Positions 2,106 to 62,791 of a stretch of 64,000 nt of DNA are shown in pieces; positions within the stretch are counted from its first letter, which is position 1; each line of letters opens with the position of its first letter. The DNA is taken from positions 2,912,001 through 2,976,000 of the forward strand of contig OX485803.1 in assembly GCA_950295325.1 (NCBI GenBank), in the 5' to 3' direction. The translations under genes and the position numbers were made by a program. The notes beneath the pieces were generated by a model. It searched no databases. It saw only the letters and a program-made list of their open reading frames with translations, and was not told the origin of the DNA. Source of the DNA: Polytrichum commune. Its lineage: Eukaryota > Streptophyta > Polytrichopsida > Polytrichales > Polytrichaceae.

Positions 2106-2363
2106 GGAGAACGCTATTTCCCATGTAGCGGAGGATAAGGGCGGGAGTTCCGGCCATTGGTGGCCCCCGTCGGACGACGTGGCTGTCCACGTTGGACCCG
2201 CGGTTTCACCCGTCGCGCGGCCCTCGCGGTAACTCCGCCCGACCGTAACTCTGCCTCCCTGTAACACTGCACGCGAACGCGTTCACTCTGAGACACTGTG
2301 CGGACACTAAACACTGGGTGCCTGTGACACTGACTGTGCCCGAGAAATTTTTTTTTGGTGACG
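2106..2363 (+). repeat. Left terminal inverted repeat of MULE-1
   Basis: It matches the reverse complement of 13165-13420 over its full length, with a few substitutions and a small indel near the inner end. It is GC-rich and contains one exact GTGACACTG word at 2324-2332. The inner boundary is a T-run followed by GGTGACG. In MULEs such repeats hold transposase binding sites and promoters; that role is inferred here. Confidence 0.93.
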
Positions 2364-3184
2364 TCATTTATTGCCATTCCTGTGTAGCCATTGTCGTATC
2401 GTTAGGGTTCCAGTGTTTTGCGTGTGTGTGTGTGCAATGGAGTGCCGTGGTCGGAATTTGGGAGCTAGGAGTTTTCCGAAGAGGGTTTCTGGTCGGGTAA
2501 TGATTCGGTGGGATTGCAAATCGCGTTTCGATTCGTTTGTAGAGCACACTGCTGGATCGCCAGCCAACCTAATCGGGTAGATGTTAGAGGTTTAGGCCAT
2601 GAGGGCGCAATGATTACCTCTTCCGACGGAGATGTCATGCCCTGGCATTGGAGAGGTGGCGACGCCTTCATTACCGGCGTTGGACGTCCACACGAGAGCC
2701 GCAAGAATGCATGTAATACTCCACTTGAAAGCCACTATTTGTTGTTGTTTAGGGTTGTATGTACAGCTTCTGTAGCGATGAAGTTTAGCTTGGTTGGGGT
2801 CAGAAAATTGCGTCTTACTAGGTTTTCTGATATTCAAACGCCGAGGAAGACGCAGTTCGGGTTCTGGAGGATTCCTTGGTTTGCGACCCCTCCAACCCTT
2901 CCACCTATTGCTAACGTTCGAGTTATTGGAAGTTCTTCTATACAGTTCATAGATTAGGGTTTAGGCGGCGATTGAATTGCGAAATTGGGGACATCACATC
3001 GTGACGGTGGGGTTTAGGGTTTCGGGTTGAGGAGAAATGCGATATTGGCTCAAAGTGTAGTAGGTATTCATGCGCAATTTTAATGTCCACTCTCTTCCTC
3101 TAATACGAGGCTGGCTTTTGTTCTACATGTTGTTCTCCTTCATTGATTATCCTCTCTCAATCCTCCTACGTGCTGTTCTTGCAG
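2364..3184 (+). other. Leader region of the MULE-1 plus-strand gene
   Basis: This lies between the left terminal repeat and the first recognisable exon. It contains several teloboxes (AGGGTTTAGG-like at about 2954 and 3009) and short open frames with no family resemblance. A first exon or 5' UTR probably lies here, because the exon starting near 3185 lacks its own start codon. I cannot place the transcription start or true ATG. Confidence 0.45.
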
Positions 3185-6100
3185 AGACGGTGTCCTCTAC
3201 GAAGAGGAACACAGGATTTATAGGACGGTTTATTGTCAACCTGGATGTGGGTGTGTGATAGGGTTGAAAAGCAGTTTTCCCGGCATATCATATGTCGAGG
3301 GGGCTTGTCCAAACTGCGGAGCCAGGTCACACGCTTTTAGGCCGGAGAAGATGGCACCCGAGCCCGTGACACTGAAGGTGACAATGTATGGAATTCCCTA
3401 CAATGTCACCTACCCTAGTGAGCAGAGAGTCTCCGACCTGAGGGCAGAGTTTGCGACGATGTGTAAGGGTGCACTTAAACCTTGCGGGAAGCGACGGTTT
3501 TTTGTCTGCATATACTGTGGGCAGAACGATTTCAGCAATAAAATGATGCTCAATCGGCATCGTTTTATTGATGGCTGCCCCGAGGCTACATATCCCGACG
3601 GCAAGAGGGCGTTAATACTACCTTACCCCGATTTCAAACCCGGGGAAGGTAAGCGGGTGGAGGTTTTAGGCAAGAAAAATGGAGGGGGTCCGCCGGTAGA
3701 CGGGAAGACGTCAGGGCTTACAAGTACAGAGTCAGCTCTGGACGGATAAAGTCAGGACACGGGGGGGGGGAAGGTGCAGGAGACGAAGAAGAAGACGGCG
3801 AGGTTTCCGGGAAGGGTGCACACGACGTAGAACATAACCTTCATAGAATTGCTGATGAAACAAGCCTCAAGAAGCTGCTGCCTCCACGAGATCTCTTTTG
3901 TGATGTACTTGCCGATGGAGGGCTACCAAGAACCCTAAAGAATCCGCCTAACAAAGGAAAACAAGGCTCGGGGCCGTCACAGGTAAAGAACGGCGTCCAT
4001 CCGCCACCGCAGGACACTGATCCACATTTTGTAGAGGGGGAAGTGAGACTGAAGAGGCAGGTGGGGGTTGTTGTTGGCAAACAGTCTGTTCCAGACATTC
4101 TCTTAAACGGAAAACGTAGCAAACGAAAGGTTGGGACCTGCTTAGAAGAAGTGCCCGCTCTAGGAGCGAGGGTCAAGCGGCAGGCTCACTCGAGTATGCG
4201 GAAGTCCGGTCATAGGGGTTCAGATGTTGCCCATGACGTTGACAACGTGTCTGGAGTTGCGATGAAGACTGCTGCGAAGAAGACGGCAGCCAAAGTCACA
4301 TGGCGTGACACTGAAATTGGGGCGCAGGCAGGCGGAGACGCGGCTGCAGGTGGAAGAGAACCGGATGTACGTAGGGTTCATGTAGCGAAGAGGAAAATGG
4401 ATCAGCGCGATGACGCAGACGGGTTTCACATGTCAGTCTGGGATGGACCAAGTAACAAACAACCTAGGATTGAAGAAGGTGTCAACCGTGGCAATGAAGA
4501 CGTGAGCACCATGCTAAATCACCTTGAACTCATTAAGGAGAGGGCCATTTCCACACTTCGGGAAAGATTTTACTTAAGACGTACATGTATTTGTCGTAGG
4601 GCATCTATTCAGAGTAGACTCCCTCTGTTTCTTTTAAGTACGGAGAATGGACCTCACACATGTGTCAAGCAGGTGGTTTGTGACAGGGTTTGCCCTTCTC
4701 CGATGGATGATGCTCTGCGGGTGGATGCCGATAGAGGTGGCACTACTCCGGAAATACAGTGTCACGACACAGACGGCAATTTTAGTGACTATGATATGCC
4801 TCCCTGTGAGCTAAACCAATACCCGCCTCCATCTCCGACGCTCACGGAGGGTGCAGTGGCGTCCATGTATGTGTGGACGGACGCATCCGTCTTTATTGCC
4901 GAGATGAGGGAATATTGGGCAGAAGGTAAGGGTGCGATCAGGCCTTTCTGTTTTGGCAGTGCAATCGAGGGGAGGTTGAGAGCTAGAGCAAAAGCGTTGG
5001 AGACGTTGGAGGATGCGTACGTCGAAAAACACTGCAAAGCACAAGAGGATTTATGGATGGATACCATCGAGCCTACATGTCCCTCAAAGCCTCCGATGCC
5101 CGCATTGTATCACCTTAAGGAGTATGAAAATTCCGTCGCTCTCCCGTGGACATGGGACTGTCAGAGCGGGGACGACTTCGTTAGGAACTGGGAGAATACG
5201 GTACAAACGGACGAGTTCAAAGACAAACTCATGCGCTGTGCGTACTGGTGGATACGGCGAAAGGTTTGTGTCACTATTCCCGAAACATTCTACAGGTTGT
5301 TTTCTTTTAATTGCGGAGACATGTCATAGAAGTACAGTAGAAATTTAGGGTTGTGACACTGTGACACTGAATTCGCCTATGTTTAACTGGATGCGTTCCT
5401 CTCCCACAGGGTGATAAGAAGGCGCCCCTGCCTGCAGACCTCGTCGAGAGTGTCACGAACACTATCGATAACCTTGTGCAATGCGTCGAGAACGGGGTTC
5501 CGTATGAGGACCTACAAACCCTAAAGGCGTACATTCAGTGGACCACTGACCATGCAGCCTTCGAGGCCGAGCTCCGTAGTTACCGAGATAGAGTGCAGGT
5601 TGCACACGAGGAGGAGGTGCGGAAGGCACGTGCTGACTTCAAACAGAGGAATGGTCTGCTCACCGAGCAAGTGTTGTGGGATTGGTGCCCCGTTTTCCGT
5701 GTTCTAAGGACGTTCGAAGAAATTTTGCATGGACTCCCTCCATTTCCTTGGCGTCACAACAGTGAGAGTGCTAACCATGCTCCTGGCATTTAGAAATTGC
5801 ATAGCATTATCCGTGTTTATTTCCCGTATCCACATTTATTTTTTCATTGCTGATATTGGAAACTGTGTGTGACTCGTTTTCAGTGGCAGAGGCAAAGGAT
5901 GTCCGCAACGTGCTTCGCGAGACTCGTGTATCGCGGAACCCGCCCCCGCCACTTGCGTACGTGTTTCGGGTCCTGTTTCGTACCACGTACGGATTGTTCA
6001 GGCACTTATGTTGTCCCAACTACGGACTCACGGCTGAGGAATTGCGGAGAGAATGTCAGGTTCGCATCAATGTCAAACGCTCGTTGTCAACATTTCTGGC

Positions 6101-8207
6101 GGAGGGACCTTACCAATTCTCCGGTGTACGGCATGGCTTCGGAGAAGATTTTCGGCAACGGGTTCAGGCGGAGGTGGACCATATATGTAACGGGGCGGGA
6201 GAGGATATAGTCCAAGAAGTTATGGCGTGGGTCCACACCGTTCAACTACGAGCACTGCAGGAGCACGCTGTGTGCCACCCGATGCAGTTCATTGGGGCTT
6301 GGACAACTACTGCCCATGCCCACTGGGAGGAGCAGGCTCAACATTGGCAAGTGGCACTACGAACCCGCGAGGACCATGACTTAGGGTGGGTTCTGTCCGG
6401 ATTTACTCCAGCCTGGAATCCTGGCATCGCGGCAGTAAGGTTGCGTATCCAGGAAACCGTAGAGGGGATTAGGGAAACAATGTCTTTGGAAGACAGAGCT
6501 CATTGGGAGATATGTGCGAAGGATTTCAGCCGGGATCCTTGTCTGCGTCACCCTTCTCAAATGGGCAGTACTTGTGAGGACACGGCTATGGGAGGTGACG
6601 GTAGTCTCAAAACAAAAGACGTAGAGGCGGAGGATGATACCGGATTAGGGACGGTTGAGAAAAACTCCGAGATAGAACAACACCCTGTCGCTAAAGATGC
6701 TGGAAACACTGTGAAAGTTGACGTTATTTCACGTGGGAATGCAGGAGTTCCCACAATCAAGTATGAAGGGCTGCCTAGACACGACATTGTTGGTGTTCAA
6801 GAGCAGGAGACAATACTCTCTCCTTGCCCGCCAGACAATAGTCCCGTGACAGAGGATGATAAGGATCTCAACGTAAATGAGCATGGCGGTCCAGTGTTTC
6901 CCGATATTAACTCTATACTTGCTAATGAAGCCCACGATTCCCCGCCTACAGATGCGTTGATTACACTTAGCCAGTTTGAGAATACTGTGCACTCAGGTGT
7001 GGACATGAATCTGGAAGGGGCGTCGTTCTCGCAGGACCCCAGTTTTGTGCATTGGGTTAAGGCTGGTGTCGATGATCCACTGCGGACGCCTACCCGGGGA
7101 ATCTCGATTGTCACAGCCCAGGACACCACGTCTGTGGAGGGGGCTGACAACGACAGCACCTGCCATAACCTCCGTGACAAATTCGAACAAGTGGAGGAAT
7201 TGGAGGCTGTGACGCACCTGGTCAGCTTGTCCCAGGGTACAGATCGCGACGTAAGGGAGACGTCGAAGCCGTTGGTGCTCGAGAATCCTACTCCGACTCC
7301 TGGGGACATCACTGCAGAGCCGTATCAAGTGAACCGTGGTCAAATTGTTCGATCTTACAGGTTGGTGACGTGGGCGTCATGACATTAGCGCAAGCCTACA
7401 ACTACCTGCACGTGGAAGATCACATGCAAAGTCTACCTGGGTGTCAAGGGAGGAGGGACAACGCACGTGAGGTCATATTCTTCAACGAGAAGGGCAAAGA
7501 AATCGGGGTTAAATTCTCAACCATCCGAAGTTTAAAGCTTGTAAGGACACGTTTGGGTAACGACATTGTCGATTTGGTCATGTCTAGGTTGTACTTTCAG
7601 TACCCAGCCCGAACAAGGCACGAGATCCTGTTCCTGTTGTCTAGAGTGAGCTCGTGCAAGGGTTTAGGGTTTAGGGTGAGGGTTTAGTTCCTGTTGTCTA
7701 GAGTGAGCTCGTGCTGTTGTCTAGGGGAGTGCAAACATACGAGGTCGCGGTAGTGCAGCAAGACGTATGTCATCAATCCGGGAATTATGAGTGTGGTCAT
7801 CACACTGTAAGAAATGCACTAATGTATCTAAAGGTAATGCGCATTGTCACTTGTTTCAAATTATAACCTGTTTTATCTTATGCTCTATGTGGAATGTTTT
7901 CAAAGTTGTGACATTGTAGTGTCACAATGTCTTACAACTGGGTGACTGAGTTACTGACAGTTTTGTCCGGCTGGACTTGTAGTTCCGTGGGATGGACCGG
8001 AAGGACGGGGAGGTAATCATGCGGCAGAAGATAATGGAGGCGTTCAAAACTAAAGACACCAACCTAGAGATTCTCGCTTTGATAGCAAAGGAACTAGATG
8101 CAGGACGTCGGGACACACGGTACAAGGCTCCTTTCAGCATTCCTGACAAGGACATGACTTCTGAACCCGACGTTGAGAGCGACGTCCTCATATTAGACTC
8201 CGAATAG
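3185..8207 (+). CDS. MULE-1 zinc-finger / Ulp1-like (C48) protein, multi-exon, probably damaged
   Basis: Phase-consistent exons are about 3185-3648, 3732-5263, 5410-5761, 5884-7250, 7361 to about 7650, about 7722-7833 and 7983-8207, with GT-AG borders (e.g. GAC|gtaagg at 7251, ttacag|GTT at 7361). The start codon is not located; the first in-frame ATG is at 3351. The N-terminus has CxxxCxC plus CPNC motifs and a C-x2-C-x13-H-x5-C finger (about 3511-3577). The middle is long, charged and unrecognised. Near 7540 the peptide LGNDIVDLVMSRLY resembles the start of Ulp1 peptidases, and QSGNYECGHHTV (about 7780) resembles their catalytic Q/C region. The His and Asp segment that should lie between is missing. 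The tail ends DVLILDSE. The first intron (83 bp) and the 7650-7722 junction are uncertain. Confidence 0.7.
7361..7833 (+). other. Ulp1/C48 protease-like region, interrupted
   Basis: The two ends of a C48 fold are visible. RSLKLVRTRLGNDIVDLVM fits the helix and LND-type motif that opens the domain. QDVCHQSGNYECGHHTVRN fits the oxyanion Gln and nucleophile Cys with the following helix. Ulp1 peptidases normally have about 60-100 residues between these with an HW and a D motif. Here the gap contains only a duplicated 27-bp segment (7631-7657 and 7688-7714) around a telomere-like run, with a stop in at least one frame. The catalytic triad therefore looks incomplete unless another exon supplies it. 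Confidence 0.6.
7658..7687 (+). repeat. Short interstitial telomere-like repeat
   Basis: About 30 bp made of GGGTTTAGGGTTTAGGG followed by GTGAGGGTTTAG, i.e. plant telomere units with one variant. It sits between two copies of the same 27-bp coding segment. It is far too short to be a chromosome end. Confidence 0.8.
8181..8204 (+). other. SUMO-interaction-like motif at the C-terminus
   Basis: The last eight codons before the TAG at 8205-8207 read DVLILDSE. A short run of aliphatic residues (V-L-I-L) flanked by acidic residues and a serine is the usual composition of a SUMO-interaction motif. It fits a protein with a Ulp1-like (SUMO-protease) domain. This is composition only, and such motifs occur by chance. 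Confidence 0.4.
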
Positions 8208-9664
8208 GAATGAACTGTTTTAAGAATGTACAAGTAGGATGCTCTTTGTAATTTCCCCTTTCAGGGAGATAGATATATTCATTCGGATTTCAGGACGTAC
8301 ATCTAAATCGTGGTGAAATCCGTGGTGAAATCCACGGTTGTAGTGAGGTAGTGTCACAGTGTAACAGATGCGGATTTCATAACCCAAAATATAGGAAAGG
8401 ATACTACACGGTGACATTAAAGTTCGCCAATACATTGTACGATTGATTGATTGCCGCAAGGGCGGAAATACAATGGGCATATGCCAAACCGACGGTCCAA
8501 TGACCTCGACATAAGTAGAGACCAATATGACATTAATTTCCACTATAACAGCTGAGATTGTGCAATTCTTCGTCCCCAAGCGCACCATAGTACTCCTTCC
8601 ACATGAACACAACGTCGTCAGAACCATGTTCCACTCCAACTCCTGAAATATCATCAGGTTTATGAGAGGCGCCCACGGGTAGATCACTCTACGGCATTTT
8701 TGTGCACCACGTGCGGCTGGGGGTTTTTTGTTTTGGGGCTATTTACCTTCAAGGGTTGAATTAAAGCCTCCCTATAATTACTTAAATTTCAAAAATGGCC
8801 CATTTGTTTGCACCCTTCCATTACTTATATTGTCCAAGTCACTGTAATTTTTTGTACTCTATATTCCTTTTAAGTAATTTTGGACAGACGGAAATCCCAA
8901 TTATCATCCAACCCCGTGAGTCCTAAACCCATTTACATACCATACTAAACATACCTTCTAGGATCCTTATCTTCAGCCCCTATATTAATTTTACGAAAAA
9001 ATAATGGCCCATGTTTTATGTCCATCTAACTTACTTATAATGGGATTGTCTACATTTAATGGCCCTTTCATTATTTGGAATTCCTTTATAATTTTTATTT
9101 CAAATGATTTTAATCCTCTCTATATTATGCCGCACGTCGTTTTTAAAATGCACTAAGTGATCTACCCGTGGAGGCGCCACCACCGTGACGGAGCAACCCA
9201 TTACCATCCGAGGTAGCATCCTCCGCATTTCCACGCTGAGTACAGTCCAAGCACGATCTCCTCCTCTGTGACACTGGGGTACATCCGCACCTACGACAGG
9301 GAGGTCGACATCCTTCAGCCCTAACTATTCGGTCGTCACGTCCAGACGCCATGCTTAGACGGCATATACAAATCACCGAGATCAACAATACTGCACTACC
9401 AAAGAGAATGACAATCACCCATCCCTGTAAGTCAAAAACAACCAACACTACCATCGTGCACATGCTGTGCGAAAGTCCTATCGAAAACTCCTATCTCTAG
9501 ACAAGCACTAAGGTATCTTGCGGGGAGACAAGACGTGCAAACAGACAAGACGGAACTAATAAATCCGTAGGAGGCGGTAAAGGGTTTAGGGTTCAAAGTT
9601 TAGGGATTGGGGCGCGCAAGAACCTTAGTCTGATATCCAGATTGGGTTTTCCGGCGGGTATAGC
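8208..9664. other. Central intergenic zone of MULE-1 between convergent genes
   Basis: No convincing exon on either strand; it should hold both transcript 3' ends. It is AT-rich between 8750 and 9140. It contains TAGTGTCAC at 8349, GTGACACTG at 9268 and telobox-like GGGTTTAGGGTTC near 9583. A short inverted match links TCTACGGCATTTTTGTGCAC (about 8690) and TAAAATGCACTAAGTGATC (about 9145), flanking the AT-rich tract, so a small inserted sequence is possible there. Confidence 0.55.
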
Positions 9665-11209
9665 CTATAGACGGCGTGCCATAGAAGACTTTGGCCGCTC
9701 CAAGAAGTCCTTATACCGTCCAAGTTTGAATCCTTTCCCATCGTTTACGGGGGAGAAGTGCGGGGATTTGGCCATGGGATGCACAGTTCCCGAATTCATC
9801 TCTGCTTTCAGCGTTCTCAGTCGACCCAATGTCTGGTTAAGGTCCGCTATCAAATGTTGCATCATCACTTGGTCACCATCAACCTCCTCGTGCAGTAAAA
9901 TAATCTGTTGTCGCAGAGTCTCGGCTAGGTCAGGTTGTGCACGCCTAGCCGGTGTAGCCCTTGGCAAGGACATGGGCGTTGGCGCCTGTGACGCTGGCGC
10001 GGGTTCAACACGCCTAGGTGTTAACAGTTGTTGCAATCCCCCGTTTACATTGCCAGCTAATCTGCCACAAAATCTCGCAATTGTTCCCTCAGCCATCTCC
10101 AGGTGCATCATCATGACGACCTTGATGTGGTGTTTACACATATTTCCGCGCTGAGCCCACACGCAATTGCAAACCCCCCACTCAGAACCAGGATTGTGGA
10201 CAGTGTACCGCAGATGCCGATGTTTAGTTGACGTCACCAATGCCACGTCTCCATCTTTCGAAGGTAGTGCCACGTCGTCATCCGGGATACTTCTCGCTTT
10301 CAGGATGGAGTTTACAATAGAATCCTACATTTTCTTATTGTCCACAAATCCCTTCTGTTTCCTTAGATCCTTGTACCAGTAGTGATCAAGAACGTCCTCC
10401 GTAAGTGCCGTAATACACCAGTCGACTCTCCGCCCTGTCATCTTGCTACGCTCTGATTTCAAGATCGACTTTGCAAATCCGTGGTAACCCTCTATAGCAA
10501 CATTAGTGTCTTGCCCACAGTAGTCTAAGTTTCGGAAACCGACCACCCACATGTGCACCTTGTCCAACCACTGCATCTTCATATATTCCCATAACTCCTC
10601 CTCTTCCGGATATCGTTTCTGCAACTCCTCTATTCGTTTGACTGCCCATTCCCTGCCTTCGTGACCCTCTGGTGCACTTCGGTCGTACATTATTAATCCT
10701 AGCTCTTTCAAGATAGCAGCCCGCCGCTCCTGATTCGATATTTTGTAATAGCAATTCTTTTGCCAAGCCCGTCGAACGTGCCAAAGGCACAGAAATATCG
10801 CCGTATTGGGCCACGTGACACTGCCACCAATGTGTCCGAATTAGTGTCACCGTTGCAAATCAATCATGTTGTGTTTAAGTGGAGACAGAGATGGACAAGA
10901 CGCAGTCAACCTAGTACAGTAAACTACAATGATTGCAGTTAGGAAACCGAAATAGCAGATGGCATAACAAACATTCGTATGAATATACTAACTTTATTGC
11001 ATTAATCTCCCCCTGAGCGCAATCCATGATAAAAGCAGCGGGCTTCCAATCTGGTTTTTCGGCAATCATTCTCGAATTCAACGCATTCATCCAAGGTGTG
11101 AGGTCCTTCTCGGCACATCGCGAAGTTAGGATAAACGCCACCGGAACACCGTTATGCCACTCGTCGAACACCATTAGCGTGTACAGAGGGAACTGTAAGA
11201 ACACAAAGA

Positions 11210-11240
<31 letters not shown>

Positions 11241-12987
11241 CAATGTCACAGTGTAGAGTAGTGCCACATTTGACTAATTGAACTCAAAAATTGTCTAATA
11301 CAAACCTTTTTCTCGTTCGTTCCGAATGTGGCGTCAACCGATATACCACTGCGGTGACCATGCTTGAGCATCATCTCCTTTTGCCATAGCGTTTGTATGC
11401 CTATGGTGAACGGCATGTTCACTCCTGTCAATTCACCGGGCACCGATATGGGCTTCTCATTGTTCGACTCGGTGTAGTAGAACACCTTGTCACTATTTCT
11501 CTGGACCCACATGCGCACTGATTGTGCATCGTTCTTGTGTAGCATGTAACTTTCCTGTGCCAACTTCCCTGATATGTTCCGAATATCCTTAGTGGTCAGT
11601 AACAGATCTCGGGTAATCTCTTTCCCCTCCGCTTGGTACTGCTTTAGAAGGTCCAAATGCTTCTTCATAATTTGGTTCGATGTGTCCTTCCGTCTAAGGC
11701 ACTCCTCAACAAACGATCGGATTTCAGGGGACAAATGAGCTGAAAACGCACTACGGTCTCCTACCTTCATGCCACCATGCACCACTAACCCATCACAGTT
11801 TACATGTTTTTCCTGAATGATGCAAATCTCAGAGACGTGAGAGAGGTGAAGGAATGTCTTAACCGTGAACTGAGCGAGGCAACCCCTCTTTACAGAAGCC
11901 CCCCGTTTCTTTTTTGAATCTCTTTGTAGCCTGGAACGATTTTTTACAGTCTGCACTGCTTCCTTTACGTCAACCCCGACGCCCTCGGTTTGTGCTGTAT
12001 CCGGATTAAGAACCTCCCCTATTGCCTCCTCCCCACAAGCACATGTACTCCCGTGGGCTGATGAAGGGCAGTTAGAGCCCATGCCAGTGTCACAGATGAC
12101 AGACAAAATAGGGCGTTTGTTTATAGTCTTCGTGGAAATGTCGATGCCTGTGACACTGACCATTGGCGCTGCACTGTCACTGCCTGCTGGCTCCGGCAAG
12201 AGTTTCTTCCTTGGCTATCGTTTCTTAACAATCTTAGCCGGTTCAGGTAAGGGATCATCTATGCTAGGAAGCTCATTGAGATCAGGGATACTCAATGTCA
12301 CGCCGCCAATTGATTTAAACTTCCGCGGGGGTTTCCTCCCATTCGGACCTTTTGCCCGCTTGGCTCTAGCTTTCCTAGTGGGAGCCAATACGTTGCCCTC
12401 CGGGACTGCATCGGGAGCACGTGGTTTCTTTTTAGGTTTCGGCAAGAGATCCTCCGTAATCGGTTTAACAACGCGGCTGTAATCTTGAGGCCCATATTCG
12501 CATTTGTACCTACATAGATTCAAACATCCCGCTTTTAGATTTTGTAGCTATGGAGGGCATGCTCTATTACGTACGATGCTTCCAGCAGTTAAATCCAGCG
12601 TTATGAACAAACTTGCACATACCTGACAACATTTAACGCTGTGCGAGGCCCCACCCTAAACTGACTCGACCCCCTATTCTCCTTATTCGCTCGGAACTTA
12701 CACTGCGCTCCCTCTCTCCCACACTGCATCCCTTCAATGAAGTCTTGAACCCTATTAGTGGGGATGTAACATTGTTGTACAACATGTGATTTCTTGTGTT
12801 CACCACGAGGGGGACGATACACTACATCCCATCTCAAATCGCGAGGCCCAAGAATGCCAGGGGGCTGACTTTGGACACGTTCCTCAATGCCTAGTAACTG
12901 GAGCCTGTGAATATCGTACTGACTAATGTCTACATTGTCTACAAACTGATCTTCAAAACACTTCGACTCATCTACAGGTGTCTCCAT
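9665..12987 (-). CDS. MULE transposase (MURA-like), four exons, with two in-frame TAG codons
   Basis: Exons 12987-12623, 12509-11306, 11192-10993 and 10820-9665 join in phase with GT-AG borders to 975 codons, and the start is the ATG at 12987. Zinc-binding-like Cys/His motifs occupy the first ~320 residues (e.g. YKCEYGPQDY). The DDE triad is D514 (SVDATFGTN), D580 (IMDCAQGEINAI) and E700 (NVAIEGYHGF), with the MULE C/H motif CLWHVRRAW at 601-609. A SWIM finger follows: CNC at 807-809 and CKH at 818-820. The tail (about 835-890) looks coiled-coil. The product should cut and paste the element by binding its terminal repeats. Codons 220 (12217-12215) and 755 (10327-10325) are TAG in an otherwise open frame, so as sequenced the full protein needs read-through. 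Intron 2 carries a (TA)n tract. Confidence 0.9.
11207..11238. repeat. (TA)n microsatellite in transposase intron 2
   Basis: A continuous TATATA tract just upstream (in the minus-strand sense) of the acceptor cttacag at 11193. It is followed on the plus strand by the near-motif CAATGTCACAGTG. Confidence 0.9.
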
Positions 12988-13164
12988 GGTGCCCTTCAGA
13001 ACTCGCTAGAATTGAAAACGCAACCTAATCAAAATGCACGATCTACTTTGCAACACAATTGTTTGCCAAAATGCTCTAAACCTAAGTGGGAAGAAGATGA
13101 ACTCAAACCCTAGATCGAAACAACGATAGTCGTAGTGACATTGAACACGGATGATAGTTTCTTT

Positions 13165-13420
13165 CGTCACCAAAAAAAAAATTTCTCGGGCACGGTCAGT
13201 GTCGCGGAGGGCAGTGTCACAGACACCCAGTGTCTCAGAGTGAACGCGTTCGCGTGCAGTGTTACAGGGAGGCAGAGTTACGGTCGGGCGGAGTTACCGC
13301 GAGGGCCGCGCGACGGGTGAAACCGCGGGTCCGATGTGGACAACCATGTCGTCCGACGGGGGCCGCCAATGGCCGGAACTCCCGCCCTTATCCTCCGCTA
13401 CATGGGAAATAGCGTTCTCC
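13165..13420 (-). repeat. Right terminal inverted repeat of MULE-1
   Basis: This is the reverse complement of the left repeat, with roughly 95% identity by eye and differences concentrated in the inner 50 bp. It contains CAGTGTCAC at 13212-13220. The transposase start codon lies about 180 bp inside this repeat, consistent with the repeat serving as its promoter. Confidence 0.93.
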
Positions 13421-13429
13421 ATTGAAATG
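13421..13429 (+). repeat. Right 9-bp target-site duplication of MULE-1
   Basis: ATTGAAATG, identical to 2097-2105, immediately after the terminal GCGTTCTCC. Confidence 0.95.
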
Positions 13430-51974: not shown

Positions 51975-54960
51975 AAATTAATGGAAAATGTTTGACCACG
52001 TCAAACATTTGAAGGACTAGACCACCCTAATGTGTCATGTGTACAATAGCAAGTATTGTAAGGTATTAACCACTATTTGTTGTGACATGCAATTTGAAGG
52101 TGGCACAACTCATGATTTCTTCTCAAAGTTCTCAAAATTATGTCATGAAAGAGAATGAGAATGTGAATTTGAAGGGTTTTATGCAGATAGTGTACATGCC
52201 AATTGAATGTAGCCATAAAGATATATGATGAAGGTGATCTAAGTCTGCCAATGGTAGGTCACGAGCGCACTTGTCTATTCCATGGATCGCAAAGTTTGGC
52301 TAAGGTTATACAAAAGTACATCAAAGCATCTCTGCAATTTTAACACAAACATCTATGCAAGGACTGCGAGGATGCAAAAACGATAGATGAAGCCGAACCT
52401 AAATATTATGTCATTCGTTTATGTTGGTTGTCATCTAGAGTTGCCACATAAGAAGGCATTCTCGAGCTCTTTGAGTGGTTGGGCTTTTGGTACTTTCATT
52501 AAGGCAATGGGGTGGTCATACGATCCTTGTAAGTGCATCACCATTGTACATTTTGCAATATTCTCTAATTTTGAGTATCAACGATATATACAATCTATTA
52601 TAATTTATATAATATTTGTAGGATATGATTATGGATGAATGTGCAAAAATGCCAACGTGTAACCTTGCAAAAAATGTGTACAACAAGTAGCTCCAACAAT
52701 CCGAAAATAAGATGACTTGTTTGTACGAAACGATAGTGGATGATTTGATATGTGCATTCATGTAGAATACAAATTACATGTGGTGGTTGAAAGGTGGTTC
52801 TGCTGGTAAAGGCCTTGATTTTGCGTGCTTAAGATTGAAGGTTGTTGCCAAGTGTGGAGATCCAAAGCTATTGGCAGATGCCACGAAGTCTTGCCTAGGG
52901 GTGGAACTACTAAATTTTTAACATGTACCCTAAAACCATTAATATTTACTAAATTTGGTAGATTTTACTACTCATTGCTCATGTCTTAGCTTCCCTCTCA
53001 AGTTTCTTCTTTGTTGATCCAAAATATCAATCCATGACTTGTGCACCTAGGTATGATATTCATAGACTCTATCAAAAGCTTCGATGCTCCAATGTGTGTT
53101 GCAGCCTTCAATTTCAAAGGCGTTTCGTCAAGTCATTTAGCTAATGAACCACCTTCACACCAAGACTATTAATTTGTGGTTTGCATGAATGCTCGAATCA
53201 TGTCATCAATGGTGGCTTCGTAAAGACATCTCATCGTGATCCCGTATTGTTTAAGCCACTCGTCGTGCACTACCTATGCAAAGTTGCGTGATGACATCTC
53301 AACATGTTGATCCCCCCGTTATTTTTTGCTCACCGACCTAGATACGAGCCTATCATGTTCACCACGTCCATCTTCATTCTTTCGTATTTTAGACTTGTAC
53401 CCTACTATAACCTCCTTGGGTCCAAAATGTTGCCCTCCATTTATCAACACCACCACATGAGTCTCACGCAACACATCCATTGTCATTGAAAATTTAGAAA
53501 ATGCATACTCGCTATCAAAGATTTCCAAAACTTCCAACGACAAAGGATGTGTTGCTGAGACTCATATGCTTGTAGTGAAAAGGATCACTTGATATTGGAG
53601 TTTCTTTGGTCTTAAACCCTACTACAAACCCACCCTAAGTTTACACTGAAGCATGTACTCCTTAAGGTAGAAATACCATAACCCGTTAACCACCCTCTAG
53701 CCGTGCACTAGACCACCATCATAATGGTGAAGTGCCATTTCCAAAACCTATCATGGCTCAGTGGCAACCTCAATGCGTGTACACTTAGTGTAGCCAATGA
53801 AAGTCAAGTGTTAATGTACTCATGAGGTAACCGATTTAGGCGATGTTCTGTATGGAAATGTGGATTACCGTGTTCGGTGTAGGGAGAATCTAGTGAACGA
53901 GTAGGGCTTTGGACAACTTTCCACTTTGAAAAATTGTAGCATTTTTTGTATGACGCAAAAAAAATATGAAACAAGTTGCATTCTTCATGAATCCTTCTCG
54001 TCTATCTTGGAAAATTCTCTCATGATTGTCAGACCAGATCTTCAATGTGAATCACCTTATTTTGACAGGTTATGGTATTTCTACCTTACTACAACACTGA
54101 AGGGAAACGCACTTCAAAGAGGAAGGTGGATTGGTATGCACCTTCGAATGTTAAACACCTCATGCGCGCATTCATTCGAAAGACCAGCTGCGAAGGCCAC
54201 AATCGCATCAATCAAGGAATCCGCACATGCCAATAAATTTCTTCCTAAGATACACTATGATGGCCGTATTTAAGGACCAGTTTCACCCCATGTGACTCCT
54301 CTGGAAATCTAATAATCAGTTATGGACATTCAACAGCGTGCACAAGAAACCATTGATGACTTGCTTGTGTGATCATATTCCTTCATTCCGTGTCTTCACA
54401 TCGTACACACGGGCTTTAACTTATTTCTATCACCTTGCCAGCTTGCTGGGCCTGAAGAGGTCAGAGCCCGTGGTGTGTTTCATTTGTGTTTTGGGAACAA
54501 GGGATTGTTAATTTGGTTTAGGTTAAGATATAAGGGCCTCTTTCCAAACATATCAAGAGCTGTGGTCATGAAATCCTAAGGGCCTTAAACAATCATCCAA
54601 AGGTTGTACTGTGGGAAATAGAAATTCAATTTGCAGTTGATGGGTCCCCAAGCTTTGTGTCAAGTGGAAGTGGATCATGTTGAGGGGCCACAACAAATGT
54701 TTGGGTTCGAGTCCCCACCATCACAATATCAGTTTCTTAGGAGCCATGGTAACTCATTTGATTGTCATGAACATCCGGCAGATTATGAAACATTATCTAC
54801 TCGTTGTCATATAAAATGTCATGCAAATTCTTCATCCATTCAAATTTCTTTGGTCCCTCGAAGCTGCAAGGTCTAGTATAACTTGGACCATCTTCAACTT
54901 CTTGACCAATCACATAATTTGTATATGATGGGTCAAGGGCCCTCATGCTCTAATGTACTG
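51975..54960. other. Intergenic, no gene seen
   Basis: Several 60-115-codon frames exist but none shows a recognisable domain or consistent splicing. They may be decayed transposon coding sequence. Confidence 0.45.
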
Positions 54961-54970
54961 TGATCCGATA

Positions 54971-55008
54971 CAGATAGATGGATGGATGGATGGATGGATG
55001 GATGGATA
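54971..55008. repeat. (GGAT)n microsatellite
   Basis: About nine tandem GATG/GGAT tetranucleotides, the first of them a GATA variant. Confidence 0.95.
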
Positions 55009-55919
55009 TTTCAACTATGATGTCAAAAAACAAAAGAATTTGGCTTCCAACTTAAGCTTATAAGGTTATGAGTTAGTATGATATTGATTGTATTACATGT
55101 GGAACACAAGAATAAGCTAGTATTTGAATTGGTTCATATTTAAATATTGTCCAATTTAATTTTCACAAAACATTTGTTGCATTTTTTGCATTTGTGTGAT
55201 CCTGTATAGCGCTCACTTCCACGTAGAATTAAAAACACATCACTTGAAAATGAAAGCATTTTGTTTTAAAATCATTGTGAGTCATTTCATTGCAATGAAA
55301 ACATATATTTGTCATAACATTACTCAACAACAAACCATTGCACTGTAGGACCATGAATTTTGTGAACAGTGTATGCCTCTTTTATGTTGGGTCACTATTA
55401 CAAATTGATCAATACTCATCATGTAGTTGTTCATTATGCAATACTCTACAACATCATGTCACCTACCATGCAACAATTTGGCGTACCAATAATATTATCG
55501 TTGTTTCGTATTAAAATTTGGTTATGCATTGTCATTGGGATATTGCATGTTGGGGCCCCACGTGCAATTGGCCACCAATTGGCCAAGGTAGCACCTATGC
55601 CAAACTAGCAGTAATGACCCGGTGGCAAATGGACTGGGAATGTTGATAGTTACAAGACCCTCACTTTACACTCCCCTCTTAGAAAGGAAGCGGAAGTGAG
55701 GGTCTTAGTGATTTTGTTTTTGTTTAAGATGTTATTAAATCCTTTGGCATCCAAAGCGGATGTTCATAAAATTACCAAGCAAGTACATGATGGCCTCTTT
55801 CCAAAGAAAAAGGTTACGAAATAAAAAATATGATAACTTAGAGTTACTTGTCAAAAAGTTCACATTAAAGTTTGAGTGCTACCCATAAATGGGGAATCCC
55901 AAAATCAAAGACTATTTAT
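55009..55919. other. Intergenic, no gene seen
   Basis: AT-rich. Short frames without domain resemblance. Confidence 0.5.
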
Positions 55920-57080
55920 GCTCATGCAATACCCGGTCCCACAAGACATAGCCAGAGAGTTGTGTGATGTTATGTTTGAATAAGACTCATGTTTACCTCA
56001 ATTTGTATGGGGCTAGAATGCCAATAATACCAAGGACTCTGCTCCAAAGATGGAGCTTGTAAAAGGAGTGAAGTCTAGCTACACGAGTACTAATTTTATT
56101 GGTACATCTCACAGAAATAAAAGGAGATTGATTATTGCACATGTGATACATGGTCCCATGAAATGCAACTAGAGAGCTTTGTAATGGTTATGTTTGAATA
56201 GGACTCACGTTTCCCTCACTCCTCATGGGCCTAATATGCCAATGTAACCAAGGATTCTAATGCAAAGGCAGAGCCAGTCCAGTAAAAGGAGTGAAGTCTA
56301 GTTACACGAGTACTAATTTTATTGGTACATCTCACATAAATAAAAGGAGATTATTGCACACGTGATTAGTGGTGCATTTCTTTTTTGATTTATTGTAAAA
56401 CACACATTTCAAAAATGCATTTTAAAATACTCAACAAATTTTGAGGCATTTTTTAATGTTTTTATTATAAACTCACTGCTATAGTCAATCCAAGTCAGTA
56501 GGGCAAATATAGACATGCTCAACTTCGTCAATTGTTCCATATTACCATATAGCATTAGTACATTCAAACTCAATGGCAGTGTCTGAGCCTTGAGTGTTGC
56601 CACACGCACTGACAAATACTCAAATACATAGCGCACCACATGGCACACCGGACAAGTCATAAATGATGGTTTGCATTCGCAATGACTTCATTCTTGGATC
56701 AATACTTGGGCAGAGAAGAGCTCGAAGAACTAATTTTAAAAGAGGGGAATGTTTTCGATAACGATTTGCCATAAAAGACCTCACAAATTGATGCCTTTTC
56801 AATGATTTTCAATGTCTTAAAAAACATTTCAAAATTGTTAAAAAAAACATTTCATAATGCCGCCTCCGACCTCTAGAATAAAAAATAAAAATGCAACACT
56901 ACACACGTGATACATGGTCCCACGAAATGCAGCCAGAGAGAGAGCTCTGTAATGGCTATGTTTGAATAAGGCTCACGTTTCCCTCACTCCTCATGGGCCT
57001 AATGTGCCAATGTGACCAAGGACTCTGGTGCAAAGGCAGGCAGAGCCAGTCCAGTCCAGTAAAAGGAGTGTAGCTGCATG
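55920..57080 (+). repeat. ~225-bp repeat in three direct copies
   Basis: The copies are at about 55920-56145, 56146-56370 and 56900-57080. Each holds ATACATGGTCCCA-type, CAGAGAGCTxTGTAATGG, TATGTTTGAATA, CTCATGGGCCTAATATGCC and AGTAAAAGGAGTG words. The first two are tandem and share a tail TACTAATTTTATTGGTACAT. The third is separated by ~530 bp of other sequence and is truncated at its end. Confidence 0.85.
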
Positions 57081-59553
57081 GGCGCTCGTGGTTTTGTGAC
57101 GGGTACACTACTACTTCGCAGTAAAAACACTCCATGATGGCGGGTGTAGCCTTAGCCTTTTCGTTTGTTTCTCTTGGATATGGCTTTACATATATATCCC
57201 CTTACGAATGATGATAATAAATATATCCGCATGCTGGGCCCCATTGGTGGACACAAATCCGGGCAATCAAGAGGCACTCAAGCATAGTGGAGTTCACGGA
57301 GGCCAATGGGCGCGTGCCAACTAGACTTGTTCACGACCCCATCCAATCTCCTTGGCCATGTGAAAAGGTGTACTTTGAGGTAACCCCCGATGTCCGATAT
57401 GTTAGAGGAATTTGTGCATGAGAAGGGAGCACATGGACGTGGCAAAGGCAACCATTCCGGGCCTCGAGTGTCACATGGCCCGATGCATGGCCACATGAGC
57501 CGCATGTGGTGAAGTTTGAAAGCCCCCCGCGAAACTACATTCGTTGCCAATGAATAAATTCGGTGCGGTCGTAAGGCACGCGTGTCGGGTGTTGTTGTTG
57601 GGTCCGTTTCTCATGTTCCCCAACTTCGATCGATTAGAGCTAACCAATGTTGAAATCTTGTGTTGCATTAGCAAATCTATGATGAAACATCTGCAACAAC
57701 CGGATTGAAAATCGGACCTCCCCTTGTTTAGTTATGGTTATATCGGAAGTGTGTGGTTGCTGATTCCTTAACTAGATACATGGGTCCTCCCAATAGCGTT
57801 CATTATTGAGTGTAGAGCAGTTCTTGATATTTGAAAATATAGTCTAAACTCTTTTAAACATGTGTCTTTATGATCTTTGATCCTCACCAAACCACATACC
57901 AATCTAATGAAGGGGTCTAATTGAGAAACAAGCCACTTAAGACCCATCTACCTTGTGTGTCAAGGTGGGAGTCATCATCGCAGGGGTCTTGATGCAAGAA
58001 AAAGGTTGAATTGAGATGAGGGCACTGGAAATGGAGGGAAAACCCCATTATTTTTATTGGTCGTTGCGTTCATTTAGCCATTTGGATCACATGAAGGAAA
58101 TGCAGGCTTGGACGTGAACTTGAACCAACATGTGTATAGTTTCATGTAGCGTGTAGGGAAAATGATTTCTCCACAAAAATCATATGCTTGAGAATGGAAG
58201 GCACATAGCCGCCAAGTAGGTTAGACGCTTGAGAAACATAAGGTGGTTGTCTACACACATGTAAGAGAACACCCTTTTTTTTAGAAGACTTCCAAGTTCT
58301 GTTTTGCACTATATCGTTTATGTTGTTTAATGCCACGTACATTACTAGTAGTGGTCCACGCCGGACACTGGCTCGGTGACTATATCATTCATAAAAAATG
58401 CATTGGGATTTTAAATAACAATACAATGGATATTGGCGTATGAATTATGAGAATGGTGATGAAAATGGATGAGGCCGTGATTTGGATCAATTACTCATCT
58501 CGTACTATTTGCATGGCTAATGTCCTAGGAGAGATGGGCTAATAAAAAAAGGGAAATAAACAACAAAAGGAGAAAAAAAAATCATCTACCTTACCCTACA
58601 ATTTCTAACCTATTACATCAATTCAACCATATGAGTCCCAAACACAACAAATTCCAAACAACTTCTTTTAATATGTGGAAATATAAATAAGGCCAACATA
58701 GCATGCGAGGCTCTAGATGTAACTTGCTTAAAGCTTAAGAAGGTCCACTTCGGAGACCCTATGTGGAAAGTTCAAAAACCCTTTATAAGTAAAATTCACT
58801 ACTATTGCATGGGAGAGGCGAGGTTGTATGGATAATATACAACACAAATGACTTTACTTCATGAAAGCTTACATTCTTAGCAAAAAAATTACAGCATTGT
58901 GTAACTCCAAATAGTAAGTGACACTAAATACCATAAACTTAAACATAACAAAACTATTAAATAACTCGAAGTTGGGTCTGCCCATTTGGTCTGGTGGGTT
59001 TAAGATAGAGGTTGATGGTTGTGGAATCTAAGCTTTTGCAGTTGCATTTGTGTAAATTGTGGCATCAAAGAATTCTTAGAGCCCGGGGTTTTTTATGTCT
59101 AGTCTTTGGGTTCAGTGCGGATGAAGGAGCTTAAGTGCCTAAAGTTTCAAATACATATGCTCGTTTGGTGTGGAGGGTTCAAGATATACAGTGTGGGATT
59201 TGAGTGTTTGCAGTTGCATTTGTGTAGACCGTAGCATTAGGGTTTCTTTAGGGTTTTGAGTTTAAAGGCTTGGGTTAAGTGCGGATTAGGGAGGGGTATC
59301 GCCTATTCATTGGGGATTTGTCCTGAGAGTTTTGAGAGTTTTGAATCAGGGATGTTTAATGCCTAGTTTTTCCATACACATCTAAATCAATTTAACGCCT
59401 AGTTTGTGGGATTGCCTTGCCCTTTGCCAGGTGGAGAATAAATGAACCCCACATTCTCCCAATGAACTCTATAGGGTCTTATCCACTTGCAGCCCGCCAT
59501 GTGACTGAACTAGGGCTTTGCCTGGTTTGGAGGTCCTTAAGGCAACTATTTAA
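57081..59553. other. Intergenic, no gene seen
   Basis: Short frames only. A piece near 58896 (TTGTGTAACTCCAAATAGTAA) resembles the end of MITE family A. Confidence 0.45.
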
Positions 59554-59790
59554 GAGCCCCTTCACACTATGGCCGTCCAAGTCGAGAGGCCATGGGATTG
59601 GTTGGCCAAATTTTGTTGAGAGTCCAAAGAATTGGGTTGCAAATATCCAATACAATATGGGAATTGGAGCCTTCGGTCAAGCATAGTGTGAAGTTTCCAA
59701 AGGCCAAGTCCAAAGTGTAAACCTAAGAAGAGCATCCCACTTTATTCCTTGCCCAAAATAAGCCCTCCAATTTAATAGCCAAGATATTGT

Positions 59791-59827
<37 letters not shown>

Positions 59828-60055
59828 CAACCTCTCGACCATACTTTGGGTTTCCATTCATGTCTGACCCAAACTTCCTTCGAGAGTCCGCCGTCTTGGT
59901 CAAAAAGTATTGCCATGCAAGCATTCTGGAGAGTCACGGCCTTTGGACTATGGCCTCTAGTGTGAAGGGTTGAGAGGCCGAATTCTTGGTTTCGTGCAAT
60001 CAGATTGGTGGAAATCAACGGCCTCTCGACCTTTGGCCATAGTGTGAAGCGGCCT
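59554..60055 (-). mobile_element. MITE family B, copy 2 (Tourist-like?)
   Basis: The ends are GAGCCCCTTCACACTATGG and CCATAGTGTGAAGCGGCCT, with direct TAA on both sides (59551-59553 and 60056-60058). A 3-bp TAA/TTA duplication is typical of Tourist/PIF-Harbinger MITEs. The interior is related to 42168-42639 in reverse and carries a (TA)n tract at about 59796-59824. Confidence 0.8.
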
Positions 60056-60128
60056 TAAGTGGCAAGGTGCAACTCTAGTTCAAGCACGTGTGGTGGTTTC
60101 ATTATAATCAACAACTTGGTGGCTTATG

Positions 60129-60137
60129 ATTGTATTC
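60129..60137 (+). repeat. Left 9-bp target-site duplication of MULE-2
   Basis: ATTGTATTC, repeated exactly at 63143-63151 just outside the opposite terminus. Confidence 0.93.
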
Positions 60138-60293
60138 GGATCTCCGTATTTTAGTGCTACGAGCGTTGGTAGGACGCCTCCCGCGGCCAATGTTCATGCT
60201 CGGGCAGCCCGTTCCTGTCCTCCCGTCCCGACCCGACCCGTCTTACCTGCCCGACTTGGCCTTCCGCCTGTCCAGCTGTTCACTCGTTTGTCC

Positions 60294-60987
60294 CAGGGTT
60301 GTCTATTGTGTCGTGACGGAGGCTAATCCCGACATAATGTCATGGCGTCACGACACGTATCTGTCACGACATTATGCCGGATGCCATCTTTATCTTGACG
60401 AACTTGAATTTTACCATATTTTTTTGTGTAATTACATTACCCCAATTAGGACACGTAGGATTTACGATGTCCACGTATGGTGCCATGTCAGCAAAGTAGA
60501 GGTAAAGTGGGAAAAAAATTACTAGCGCCCGTCCCCCCCCCCCGTTCCCCCCGCTCCCTACGTTCCCCTCCCCCATCTGGCACCCCATCCGGCCCTCATC
60601 CGGCCTCCATCCGCCCCCCCCCCCCCCTAATCCGAACCCGGCCCCCATCCGACCCCATCCGGCCCTCCATCCGGCGTTCCCCCCATCCGCTCCGTTCCCC
60701 TCCCCCACACACCCTCATTTGTCATATTTTACTACTTTGATTTTAACAGAATGATAAACACAAAGGCAAAATGATTTACCTGGCAAGGGAAATATGCACA
60801 TCCACGTCGGATTTTTTTGCCACATTGGATGCCACCTTGGCAAGAAGGTAAGTATTTTACCCACCCTACTAGCTTCCCCCTAGTATGACCCTACGTGGAC
60901 CCTATTATGTCGTGACGGAGGGGTCCGCCTCGACACGACACGTCATGACGTCATGACGGTGGCAGGACGTCGCGATAGACAACCTTG
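60294..60987. mobile_element. hAT-type non-autonomous element nested in MULE-2
   Basis: The termini are CAGGGTTGTCTATTGTG and its imperfect complement ...CGATAGACAACCTTG. The exact 8-bp duplication GTTTGTCC is at 60286-60293 and 60988-60995. An 8-bp duplication and a CAGGG start are hAT hallmarks. Excising one duplication copy plus the element restores the alignment of the two MULE-2 arms, which confirms the boundaries. The interior has GTCGTGACG-type repeats near both ends and a C-rich tract at 60530-60710; no coding region. Confidence 0.92.
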
Positions 60988-61201
60988 GTTTGTCCAGTTG
61001 TTCACGTGTCTGTCCATCCGTCATATCCGTCTCCACCACTACCCCACACCGAACCCGAGCTCCGTCATTCTTCCTTACTCACGCCACTAGACAGCTCCGG
61101 AGCGAGTGAGGAAGTGAGGAAGTTGGAGAAAGATTGTTGCATTACTAGTTTAGGGTTTGGAAGAGTTGTAACTTTTATCGATGTTGTCTTAGTCGCCTGC
61201 C

Positions 61202-61420
61202 ATGGAGGTGGACATTGTGGATCTGGGAGGGAAATGTGTCTCTTTCGAAGAAGGGTTTGATTTTGTAATAGAGGAGGCCACGGAAGATCTACAGGACGGA
61301 CATGGTTTAGTTTCAGATTTGGAAATTCTTCCGTCATTCTTCTGTCATTCTTCCTTGCTCACGCCACTGGACAGCTTCGGAGCGAGTGAGGAAGCTGGAG
61401 AAAGGCTGTTGCATTGCTAA
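61202..61420 (+). other. ORF start embedded in left MULE-2 inverted repeat
   Basis: ATG at 61202 opens MEVDIVDLGGKCVSFEEGFD, an acidic N-terminus repeated at 61474 and, inverted, at 62791. The frame runs to 61420 through the junction with the internal duplication. No family recognised; probably the N-terminus of a protein of the autonomous parent element. Confidence 0.5.
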
Positions 61421-61473
61421 TTTAGGATTTGGAAGAGTTGTAACTTTGATCGACATTGTCCTAGTCGATCGCC

Positions 61474-61656
61474 ATGGAGGTGGACATTGTGGATCTGGGA
61501 TGGAAATGTGTCTCTTTCGAAGAAGGATTTGATTTTGTCATAGAGGAGGCCACGGAAGATTTACATGACGGACAGGGTTTAGTTTTAGATCTGGAAATTC
61601 CTACAGGTACAATTGTCCACAAGGACACCAATACGTGCTTGAAAGCTGGTGCATAA
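61474..61656 (+). other. Duplicated MULE-2 ORF start, 60 aa
   Basis: This direct tandem copy of the preceding segment has the same opening (MEVDIVDLGWKCVSFEEGFD) and diverges after LDLEIP to a stop at 61656. It may be followed by an intron (CCTACAG|gtacaa just after the conserved block). Confidence 0.5.
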
Positions 61657-62632
61657 GAAATGTTTAGGGTGCGGGATGTAACTCTTGAAAATGTGCGGGC
61701 GAGGTTGCAGATCCCACCCCCTGGGTCCTTTGACAGGACATACATTTTTTGGGAGGAGAAAATCAACCAAGGATGGGGTAGGATCAACCCTAGATGCTAG
61801 GACAGTGGAAAAACAAAATAGTACAAAGGCACCTCTTGTTCCACCTTTAGTTGTCCAGTTGTTTCTACAGCCTCTGACTCTGATACAAGCTGTCCTAAAA
61901 GTCTTACAGGGCAACCACTCCCAATAGGACAGACAAAGCAGAGGATGGCAAGTAGATTGCAAGCCAATCTAACTTCTAAGCGAGGATGCCAATAAAATTT
62001 TGTGGCGAAGCAACTGTATATGGACAACACTTTATGTGAAATTCAGTACTATAAAATTAACCATTTCAACAAGGTTGGACATGCCTGTCATGAGAGTTTA
62101 AATTATGTTAGGACAACACTGAAAACAATGGATGTTGTATAAATTAATATATGACATTGATAGGATACATTACAATGTTACTGAATTCAATTGCCGAAGT
62201 TTCACTTACATTCAAAATTCAACAAACAATGATACTTTATTGAAAATTGGTAGGGACCAATGTATCAATACTCATGTGTCCGAAGTGGACATGTAATGGT
62301 TCTCACCTATCATAATTGTGTCCTATTATGATTCAACCTTACATTGGTTCTACCTTGTCTTATTATAACATCCCACACTATTATTCTAAAAAATAACACT
62401 AAACTCCACAACGTTATCAATGATTGCATTGCATTCATCTTCCACCACTAAAATTTGTGTCATTTGACGCGTCCAACCACAGGACACGAAGATCATCCTC
62501 TTTGTCCATAGCCAACATATCCAAGCAGGCGTTCCAGAAACAAGCTCTCATCCAGGACGAGGCCTCAGCCTGCATGGCCTCAAACCCATTGCATGTCCTC
62601 ATAACTTCCAGATCGGAAACTAGCATGTACAA

Positions 62633-62791
62633 TCACATGTCCTCATAATCGTCCATCCTGGAAGGAATTTCCAGATCTGAAACTAAACCCTGTCCGTCCA
62701 GTAGATCTTCCGTGGCCTCCTCTATTACAAAATCAAACCCTTCTTCGAAAGACACACATTTCCCTCCCAGATCCACAATGTCCACCTCCAT
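62633..62791 (-). other. ORF start embedded in right MULE-2 inverted repeat, 52 aa
   Basis: The minus-strand ATG at 62791 gives the same N-terminus (MEVDIVDLGGKCVSFEEGFD...VSDLEIPSRMDD) and stops at 62633. Just inside, a partly repeated VSDLE segment continues as another open frame (62435-62632, acidic/aromatic), so a short frameshift may have broken a longer ORF. Confidence 0.5.

Follow-up and report, generated by a model that had tools for sequence, protein, structure and literature searches.

The locus described here lies in a window of 64,000 nucleotides of the genome of the bryophyte Polytrichum commune (contig OX485803.1), to which all coordinates below refer unless another contig is named. 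Positions 2106–13420 of the window are occupied by MULE-1, a Mutator-like element (MULE) insertion to which no overall strand is assigned, along which a 9-bp word, CAGTGTCAC, is repeated on both strands. The element is flanked by a perfect 9-bp target-site duplication (ATTGAAATG, 2097–2105 and 13421–13429) and ends in long terminal inverted repeats (TIRs; left, 2106–2356, plus strand; right, 13173–13420, minus strand), the arms of which are 193 bp long at 97% identity, with an additional inner arm of 31 bp. The MULE transposase domain, PF10551, is matched in 10911–11273 with 21.7 bits (E 2.8e-4), under the Pfam cut-off of 27.6, and in a relative from group B, defined below (L018), with 28.3 bits (E 2.4e-6), over that cut-off. 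The transposase domain, the long TIRs, and the duplication are those of a Mutator-like element, which had been called a MuDR-type element in an earlier reading of the DNA letters (the sequence-only reading).

MULE-1 carries two convergent genes. The transposase gene occupies several frames on the minus strand (9665–13005). On the plus strand, a second gene, called here gene 2, starts with an N-terminal frame (3147–3749) encoding a Cx2C...HxC zinc finger at about 3471–3671, for which the match to Pfam zf-C2H2_11 is weak (E 0.0089), and continues in later frames within 3653–7863 (3653–5329, 5371–5793, 5805–7382, 7178–7687, and 7702–7863). Its Ulp1-like C terminus is present in this copy only in pieces; a 40-bp direct repeat with 57-bp spacing (7630–7726) lies inside gene 2 where the Ulp1-like frames break. 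MULE-1 is decayed in appearance, with the frames of both genes interrupted, and since transposase frames 12215–12547 and 10325–10840 each end in a stop with the next frame directly after, this copy of the transposase is probably inactive. Telomere-like GGGTTTAGGG stretches are found at 3010–3032, 7660–7682, and 9582–9604.

The repeated word in MULE-1 and its closest relatives

All 11 exact copies of CAGTGTCAC in the window lie within MULE-1, between 2324 and 13220, with none in the other 52.7 kb. The expected number is 0.61 per 64 kb, and 0.1 within MULE-1 under an order-2 Markov model; among 100 dinucleotide shuffles of the window, the check that had been named beforehand in the sequence-only reading, none reached 11 copies, and the maximum was 4. 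With the exception of the simple ATATATATA, this is the commonest 9-mer of the element. The best 8-mer of MULE-1 scores 17.3 as −log10 P, compared to a maximum of 6.6 over 100 order-2 simulations; the best 8-mers of five 10-kb chunks of the window (13421–63420) score 5.1, 4.1, 5.4, 5.6, and 9.2, the highest of these being due to a different word, AATGCAAC. That word occurs ten times, on both strands, in 53975–62850 (9 kb; 0.58 expected per 10-kb chunk), close to inverted repeats at 60990–61332 and 62660–62995, in a region without a match to the MULE proteins tried.

The variant TAGTGTCAC is found three times inside MULE-1, and the window outside it contains TAGTGTCAC twice (44670 and 58918) and TAGTGTCAT once (63324). 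Written as YAGTGTCAC, the word has 14 sites in MULE-1, two in the TIRs, six in reading frames, and six in introns, untranslated regions, or spacers, these classes being based on coding intervals set by hand. The TIR sites start at 2324, in an arm that also holds four degenerate ACACT(G/A) relatives of the word (cores at 2264, 2293, 2304, and 2311), and at 13212. The N-terminal frame of gene 2 has a site at 3366, and CAGTGTCAC is present in gene 2 frames at 4305–4313 (minus) and 4757–4765 (plus); two copies on the minus strand within 5353–5369 (5353–5361 and 5361–5369), outside the reading frames of gene 2, are joined head to tail with one base in common. TAGTGTCAC follows at 7917–7925 (plus), in an intron or spacer, and at 8349–8357 (plus), in the spacer separating gene 2 from the transposase gene, which also includes CAGTGTCAC at 9268–9276 (minus). 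Transposase frames contain CAGTGTCAC at 10815–10823 (minus, near a possible intron border), 12085–12093 (plus), and 12150–12158 (minus), with TAGTGTCAC adjoining such a frame at 10842–10850 (plus). The excess of 11 and three copies, their spread over both strands, TIRs, exons, and noncoding parts, and the head-to-tail overlap had all been claimed in the sequence-only reading and are confirmed here.

A TIR search of the genome (408 Mb, about 406 Mb of it in seven contigs, designated C1 etc.) yielded two relatives, each, like MULE-1, with a perfect 9-bp duplication: m2 (C1:41940290–41951107), which is near-identical to MULE-1 (98.6%) and has 12 copies of CAGTGTCAC, and m3 (C1:72870222–72881039), which is diverged (58% aligned identity) and has 17. 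In the alignment with m3, five of the 14 MULE-1 sites, those at 4757 and 10815 among them, are matched by the identical 9-mer, where equal local identity would predict 0.18 (P 3.8e-7); this result depends on one MAFFT alignment, which identical words can attract. Two further sites are still YAGTGTCAC in m3: the one at 2324 is interrupted by a gap in the alignment, and at 4305 a C-to-T change gives TAGTGTCAC. Conversely, for 12 of the 19 sites in m3 the aligned MULE-1 position lacks the word; sites have thus been both retained and gained or lost between the two elements. A third relative, on C5, has 13 copies of CAGTGTCAC in 18 kb, and its gene 2 (L005) and transposase (L006) lie about 29 kb apart.

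Words and second genes of the MULE groups

At least 124 transposase matches are present in the genome, and relatives of falling similarity to MULE-1 were sampled, with over-represented 8-mers listed for each locus. The sampled transposases are 55–64% identical to that of MULE-1 in group A2, 48–50% in B, 36–39% in C, and 34% in D, and the groups differ in their words: YARTGTYAC in A, the group of MULE-1, CATGTTAC/ATGTTACA in B, GAAKGACA (GAAGGACA/GAATGACA) in C, and GTAGTGCA in D, which is represented by one element. For B, C, and D, as well as for L013, L014, and L015, each locus is a stretch of fixed extent surrounding the transposase rather than a bounded element; trimming by eye was applied to L005 and L006 for the word matrix and the substitution table, and the matrix omits m2, L017 (96% like L016), and C4b (like C4a).

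The word-by-group matrix is near diagonal, with little crossover. YAGTGTCAC was observed 14, 19, and 17 times in three group-A elements, with 0.2 expected in each, compared to 0, 0, 2, 1, and 0 times in five group-B loci and 0, 0, and 1 in three group-C loci. Counts of CATGTTAC are 14, 10, 10, 15, and 8 in B, 0, 0, and 1 in A, and 1, 0, and 0 in C, those of GAAGGACA are 10, 11, and 9 in C, 1, 3, and 2 in A, and 4, 0, 0, 1, and 0 in B, and the group-D locus has nine copies of GTAGTGCA for 0.34 expected. The B and C words had been picked on L016–L020 and then met five loci fetched later, four of which carry the word of their own group (L024, L025, and L026 in B, L027 in C); the fifth, L028, has no group word and carries one of its own, and was placed separately as D. 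Genome-wide, 36 of 56 places with paired B words are no more than 6 kb from a match to group-B gene 2, as counted on a hand-typed list of such matches (0.14 expected), some of the pairs overlapping in one array.

The words, 8–9 bp long, are found on both strands with a density near one per kb (0.8–1.8), partly in short tandem arrays (25 bp × 3 in m3, 31 bp × 3 in L016, 21 bp × 4 in L019, 29 bp in L018, and 14 bp in C4a and L014); no common helical spacing was seen by eye among 14, 21, 25, 29, and 31 bp. Telomere-related words are also enriched in A, A2, C, and D elements other than MULE-1. An expectation-maximization motif finder drifted toward background in groups B, C, and D and toward a palindrome in A, and a one-mismatch table was retained instead (the pooled substitution tables omit L024 from B and L013 and L015 from A2). 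In pooled group A, CAGTGTCAC is found 41 times (0.34 expected). The tolerated substitutions are C1 to T (9 copies), G3 to A (14), C7 to T (11), and A8 to T (5), rarer ones being G3 to C (4), G3 to T (3), and C1 to G (2), and the remaining 20 of the 27 single substitutions are at 0 or 1 copies. The resulting profile, YARTGTY(A/T)C, with its narrow, position-specific tolerance, resembles a protein-binding site.

In groups A to D, gene 2 lies on the opposite strand from the transposase gene and is convergent with it. A gene 2 relative is present within 9 kb of 36 of 44 transposase matches in B and 51 of 64 in C/D, always on the opposite strand and convergent in 35 and 51 cases, respectively, with none on the transposase's own strand; this count used all 124 transposase matches and a hand-typed subset of gene 2 positions, the strongest first. 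Homology of gene 2 between groups is weak but present, with E-values that apply to the small frame sets searched. Exon 4 of group A matches B with a best E of 1.7e-5, and the Ulp1-like part of group A matches C with E from 3.6e-5 to 0.007 (1939 frames searched in each case). Within the frames of three loci, the third exon matches C and D (E 3e-6 and 8e-9) and the finger part matches B and D (E 5e-4 and 7e-5); the finger of group C was missed by that search and was recovered in the alignment. All six aligned sequences, from four groups, have the N-terminal Cx2C...HxC finger followed by YP, with columns R, C, C, K, H, R, and C as well as YP invariant, and the identity of the finger is 74–77% within A and 25–32% between groups.

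The C terminus of gene 2 was read in groups A, C, and D, and the evidence from C and D includes a profile match to an Ulp1-like SUMO protease (E 1e-5). PF02902 (Ulp1) is over the cut-off in the group-C loci L019, L020, and L027 and under it in L028 of group D (16.9 bits, cut-off 20.7), and the His, Asp, Gln, and Cys columns are invariant in the four C/D sequences; by these profile and alignment signs, the C terminus in C and D is a domain of the Ulp1 type (Ulp1/C48). The equivalent stretch in the C5 copy of group A is matched weakly (PF02902, E 0.036), and a phmmer search of PDB with that frame found no protease. The best Foldseek match of an AlphaFold model of the group-C region, a low-confidence model with a predicted local distance difference test score (pLDDT) of 42, is to SENP8, a NEDD8 protease (E 8e-5), and is considered only together with the profile and alignment results. 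The combination of a zinc finger and an Ulp1-like domain suggested in the sequence-only reading is thus seen wherever the C terminus was read.

Possible readers of the words

The accumulation of group-specific words, their narrow base tolerance, the retention of sites across divergence, and the convergent pairing with gene 2 are computed results. We consider that there is about an even chance that MULE-1 represents one of several two-gene MULE groups, each having its own word that is predicted to be bound by a protein of the element, most likely the zinc-finger product of gene 2, in the service of anti-silencing self-recognition. The word would then be a putative binding site of an element-made protein, and the action of gene 2 against silencing is suggested by analogy with VANC, the anti-silencing proteins of Arabidopsis VANDAL elements. 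Under such a mechanism, the zinc finger of gene 2 would read the word scattered along its own element, the reading of many words would label the element in its entirety as self, and the Ulp1-like part or its partners might strip SUMO, or a comparable tag, off silencing proteins located there, so that the element would stay expressed; this last step follows VANC by analogy only. Since relatives share the word, other groups have different ones, and gene 2 combines a finger with an Ulp1-like domain, the data agree with a VANC-like reader that is encoded by the element and recognizes a specific sequence, as the sequence-only reading had supposed. That reading is supported only in part, as the word also occurs outside MULE-1.

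Several observations weigh against this reading. The groups were assigned by transposase identity, without a tree; the group word is outranked by tandem-repeat, telomere-like, or other words in L019, L024, L027, and C4a; and there is some crossover (GAAGGACA, 4 observed for 0.5 expected, in L016, and YAGTGTCAC, 2 for 0.1, in L024). One zinc finger normally reads 3–4 bp, the structure models are poor (pLDDT 42 for the group-C Ulp1-like region and 33 for gene 2 of 717 residues), and 6 of the 14 MULE-1 sites lie in reading frames, unlike the noncoding sites of VANC21. The two genes on C5, separated as they are, may not belong to one element. In A2 elements, searches for relatives of gene 2 detected none, although YAGTGTYAC is present in three of the five A2 loci sampled (C4a, 9; C6a, 11; L014, 8), each with both YAGTGTCAC and YAGTGTTAC; C4a and L014 have a common array spacing and are hence not independent, and L013 and L015 have 3 and 1 sites. 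A B-type gene 2 is nearby in 2 of 12 cases in the 52–65% transposase bin. Finally, the genome has 791 places with paired AGTGTCAC, 5–35 bases apart, compared to 5 with the reversed pattern. Among the 100 places listed, which all lie on C1, 77 have a spacing of 17 bp (a hand count), and these pairs belong to repeated noncoding sequence with the MULE-1 word in tandem. Four places fetched (L032–L035) show a noncoding repeat of about 0.3–0.55 kb, the ends of which, in the copies checked, are inverted and bear TAGTGTCAC or a near variant, and no DNA similarity of L032 or L033 to MULE-1 or m3 was detected. This repeat may be a follower that uses the same reader, may point to a host factor, or may be due to chance; AT9TSD1 has been reported as a follower of VANC6 (PMC5735166).

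Among the alternatives, the word could be a binding site of the transposase, spread for transposition or for avoidance of self-insertion, with gene 2 unrelated to it. Both TIRs of MULE-1 contain the word, and the A2 elements, which have a transposase without a detected gene 2, retain it; moreover, since the groups are defined by transposase identity, the divergence of the transposase follows the words no less closely than that of gene 2. However, maize MURA binds TIR sites, and here 12 of the 14 MULE-1 sites are located beyond the TIRs, on either strand and in six cases in reading frames, and we regard this explanation as unlikely. The words could also be read by a host DNA-binding protein, either an activator exploited by the elements or a repressor recognizing them, as might be expected from the MULE-1 word in noncoding repeats without detected DNA similarity, and from the enrichment in MULE-1 of telomere-like AACCCTAA (9 for 0.33 expected), a kind of word that is host-read. 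The telomere-like word is, however, enriched alike in A, A2, C, and D, whereas the group words differ within one nucleus, so that one host factor per group would be needed, making this proposal quite improbable. That local duplication, gene conversion, or mutation bias produced the words as a side effect, with no reader involved, as their partial occurrence in tandem arrays (m3, L016, L019, L018, C4a, and L014) could indicate, has very little to recommend it, given the dispersed sites on both strands in MULE-1, the position-specific substitutions, and sites that outlast their surroundings between MULE-1 and m3.

Extending the idea of a word read by gene 2, it is possible, if rather doubtful, that bryophyte MULEs possess word-and-reader systems independent of, or older than, the VANCs with DUF1985, in which finger residues change with the word and gene-less elements as well as unrelated short noncoding repeats exploit the same word. 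If true, the presence of four groups, four words, and four finger versions in one genome would mean that transposon self-recognition through a coevolving pair of word and reader has an older origin or evolved repeatedly; the fourfold series would offer natural swaps of word and finger showing how reading changes, and possibly sequence-addressed tools for plant chromatin. To our knowledge, anti-silencing of the VANC type has been described from eudicots only, and a literature search of titles and the beginnings of abstracts found no report of such words in bryophyte MULEs.

Elsewhere on C5 (1751760–1846160), 14 frames of light-harvesting Lhcb proteins are clustered with equal score, with weaker groups of matches on C2 and C4. 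One Lhcb protein of the genome matches the Physcomitrium PDB chains 8htu_U and 7xqp_a with 480 and 478 bits, the next chain of this kind reaching 447; a longer chain, 9vfj_2, has 548 bits as the sum of two stretches. This tentatively points to a bryophyte host, probably a moss.

Comparison with known systems

In maize MuDR, mudrA and mudrB are convergent between long TIRs, with a 9-bp target duplication; two convergent genes, long TIRs, and a 9-bp duplication are also found here, and we know of no dispersed word in MuDR. KAONASHI and other ULP-like genes are carried by plant MULEs, which share with the elements described here a gene for a protease of the Ulp1 type; group-specific words are not known to have been reported for them.

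The Arabidopsis VANDAL21 and VANDAL6 elements encode the anti-silencing proteins VANC21 and VANC6 and, as described in two reports, each family has its own word, often in tandem arrays, which differs between related families (YAGTATTAY; AGTTGTCC/AGTTGTAC) (PMC5735166, PMC10398659). The same features are found here, with a short word accumulated in the element in a family-specific manner and related families differing in theirs. The A2 variant YAGTGTTAC is one base off YAGTATTAC, which could be chance, and the VANC words themselves are present in 0–3 copies per locus and are not enriched. The likeness to VANDAL and VANC thus appears, from sequence, to lie in the cis part. The two systems differ in that MULE-1 sites are also found in exons, whereas those of VANC21 are described as noncoding, in that gene 2 combines a zinc finger with an Ulp1-like domain, and in that the host is a bryophyte. 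DUF1985 (PF09331) was not matched in the gene 2 frames scanned, and a whole-genome search gave none either in this genome or in its control genomes. Since DUF1985 was not found in the scanned frames and the sites are not confined to noncoding DNA, the elements were not assigned to VANDAL/VANC; with no DUF1985 found and a bryophyte host, the reader is judged to be different from VANC, and we favor, as a matter of judgement, a VANC-like self-recognition system that would employ a different reader.

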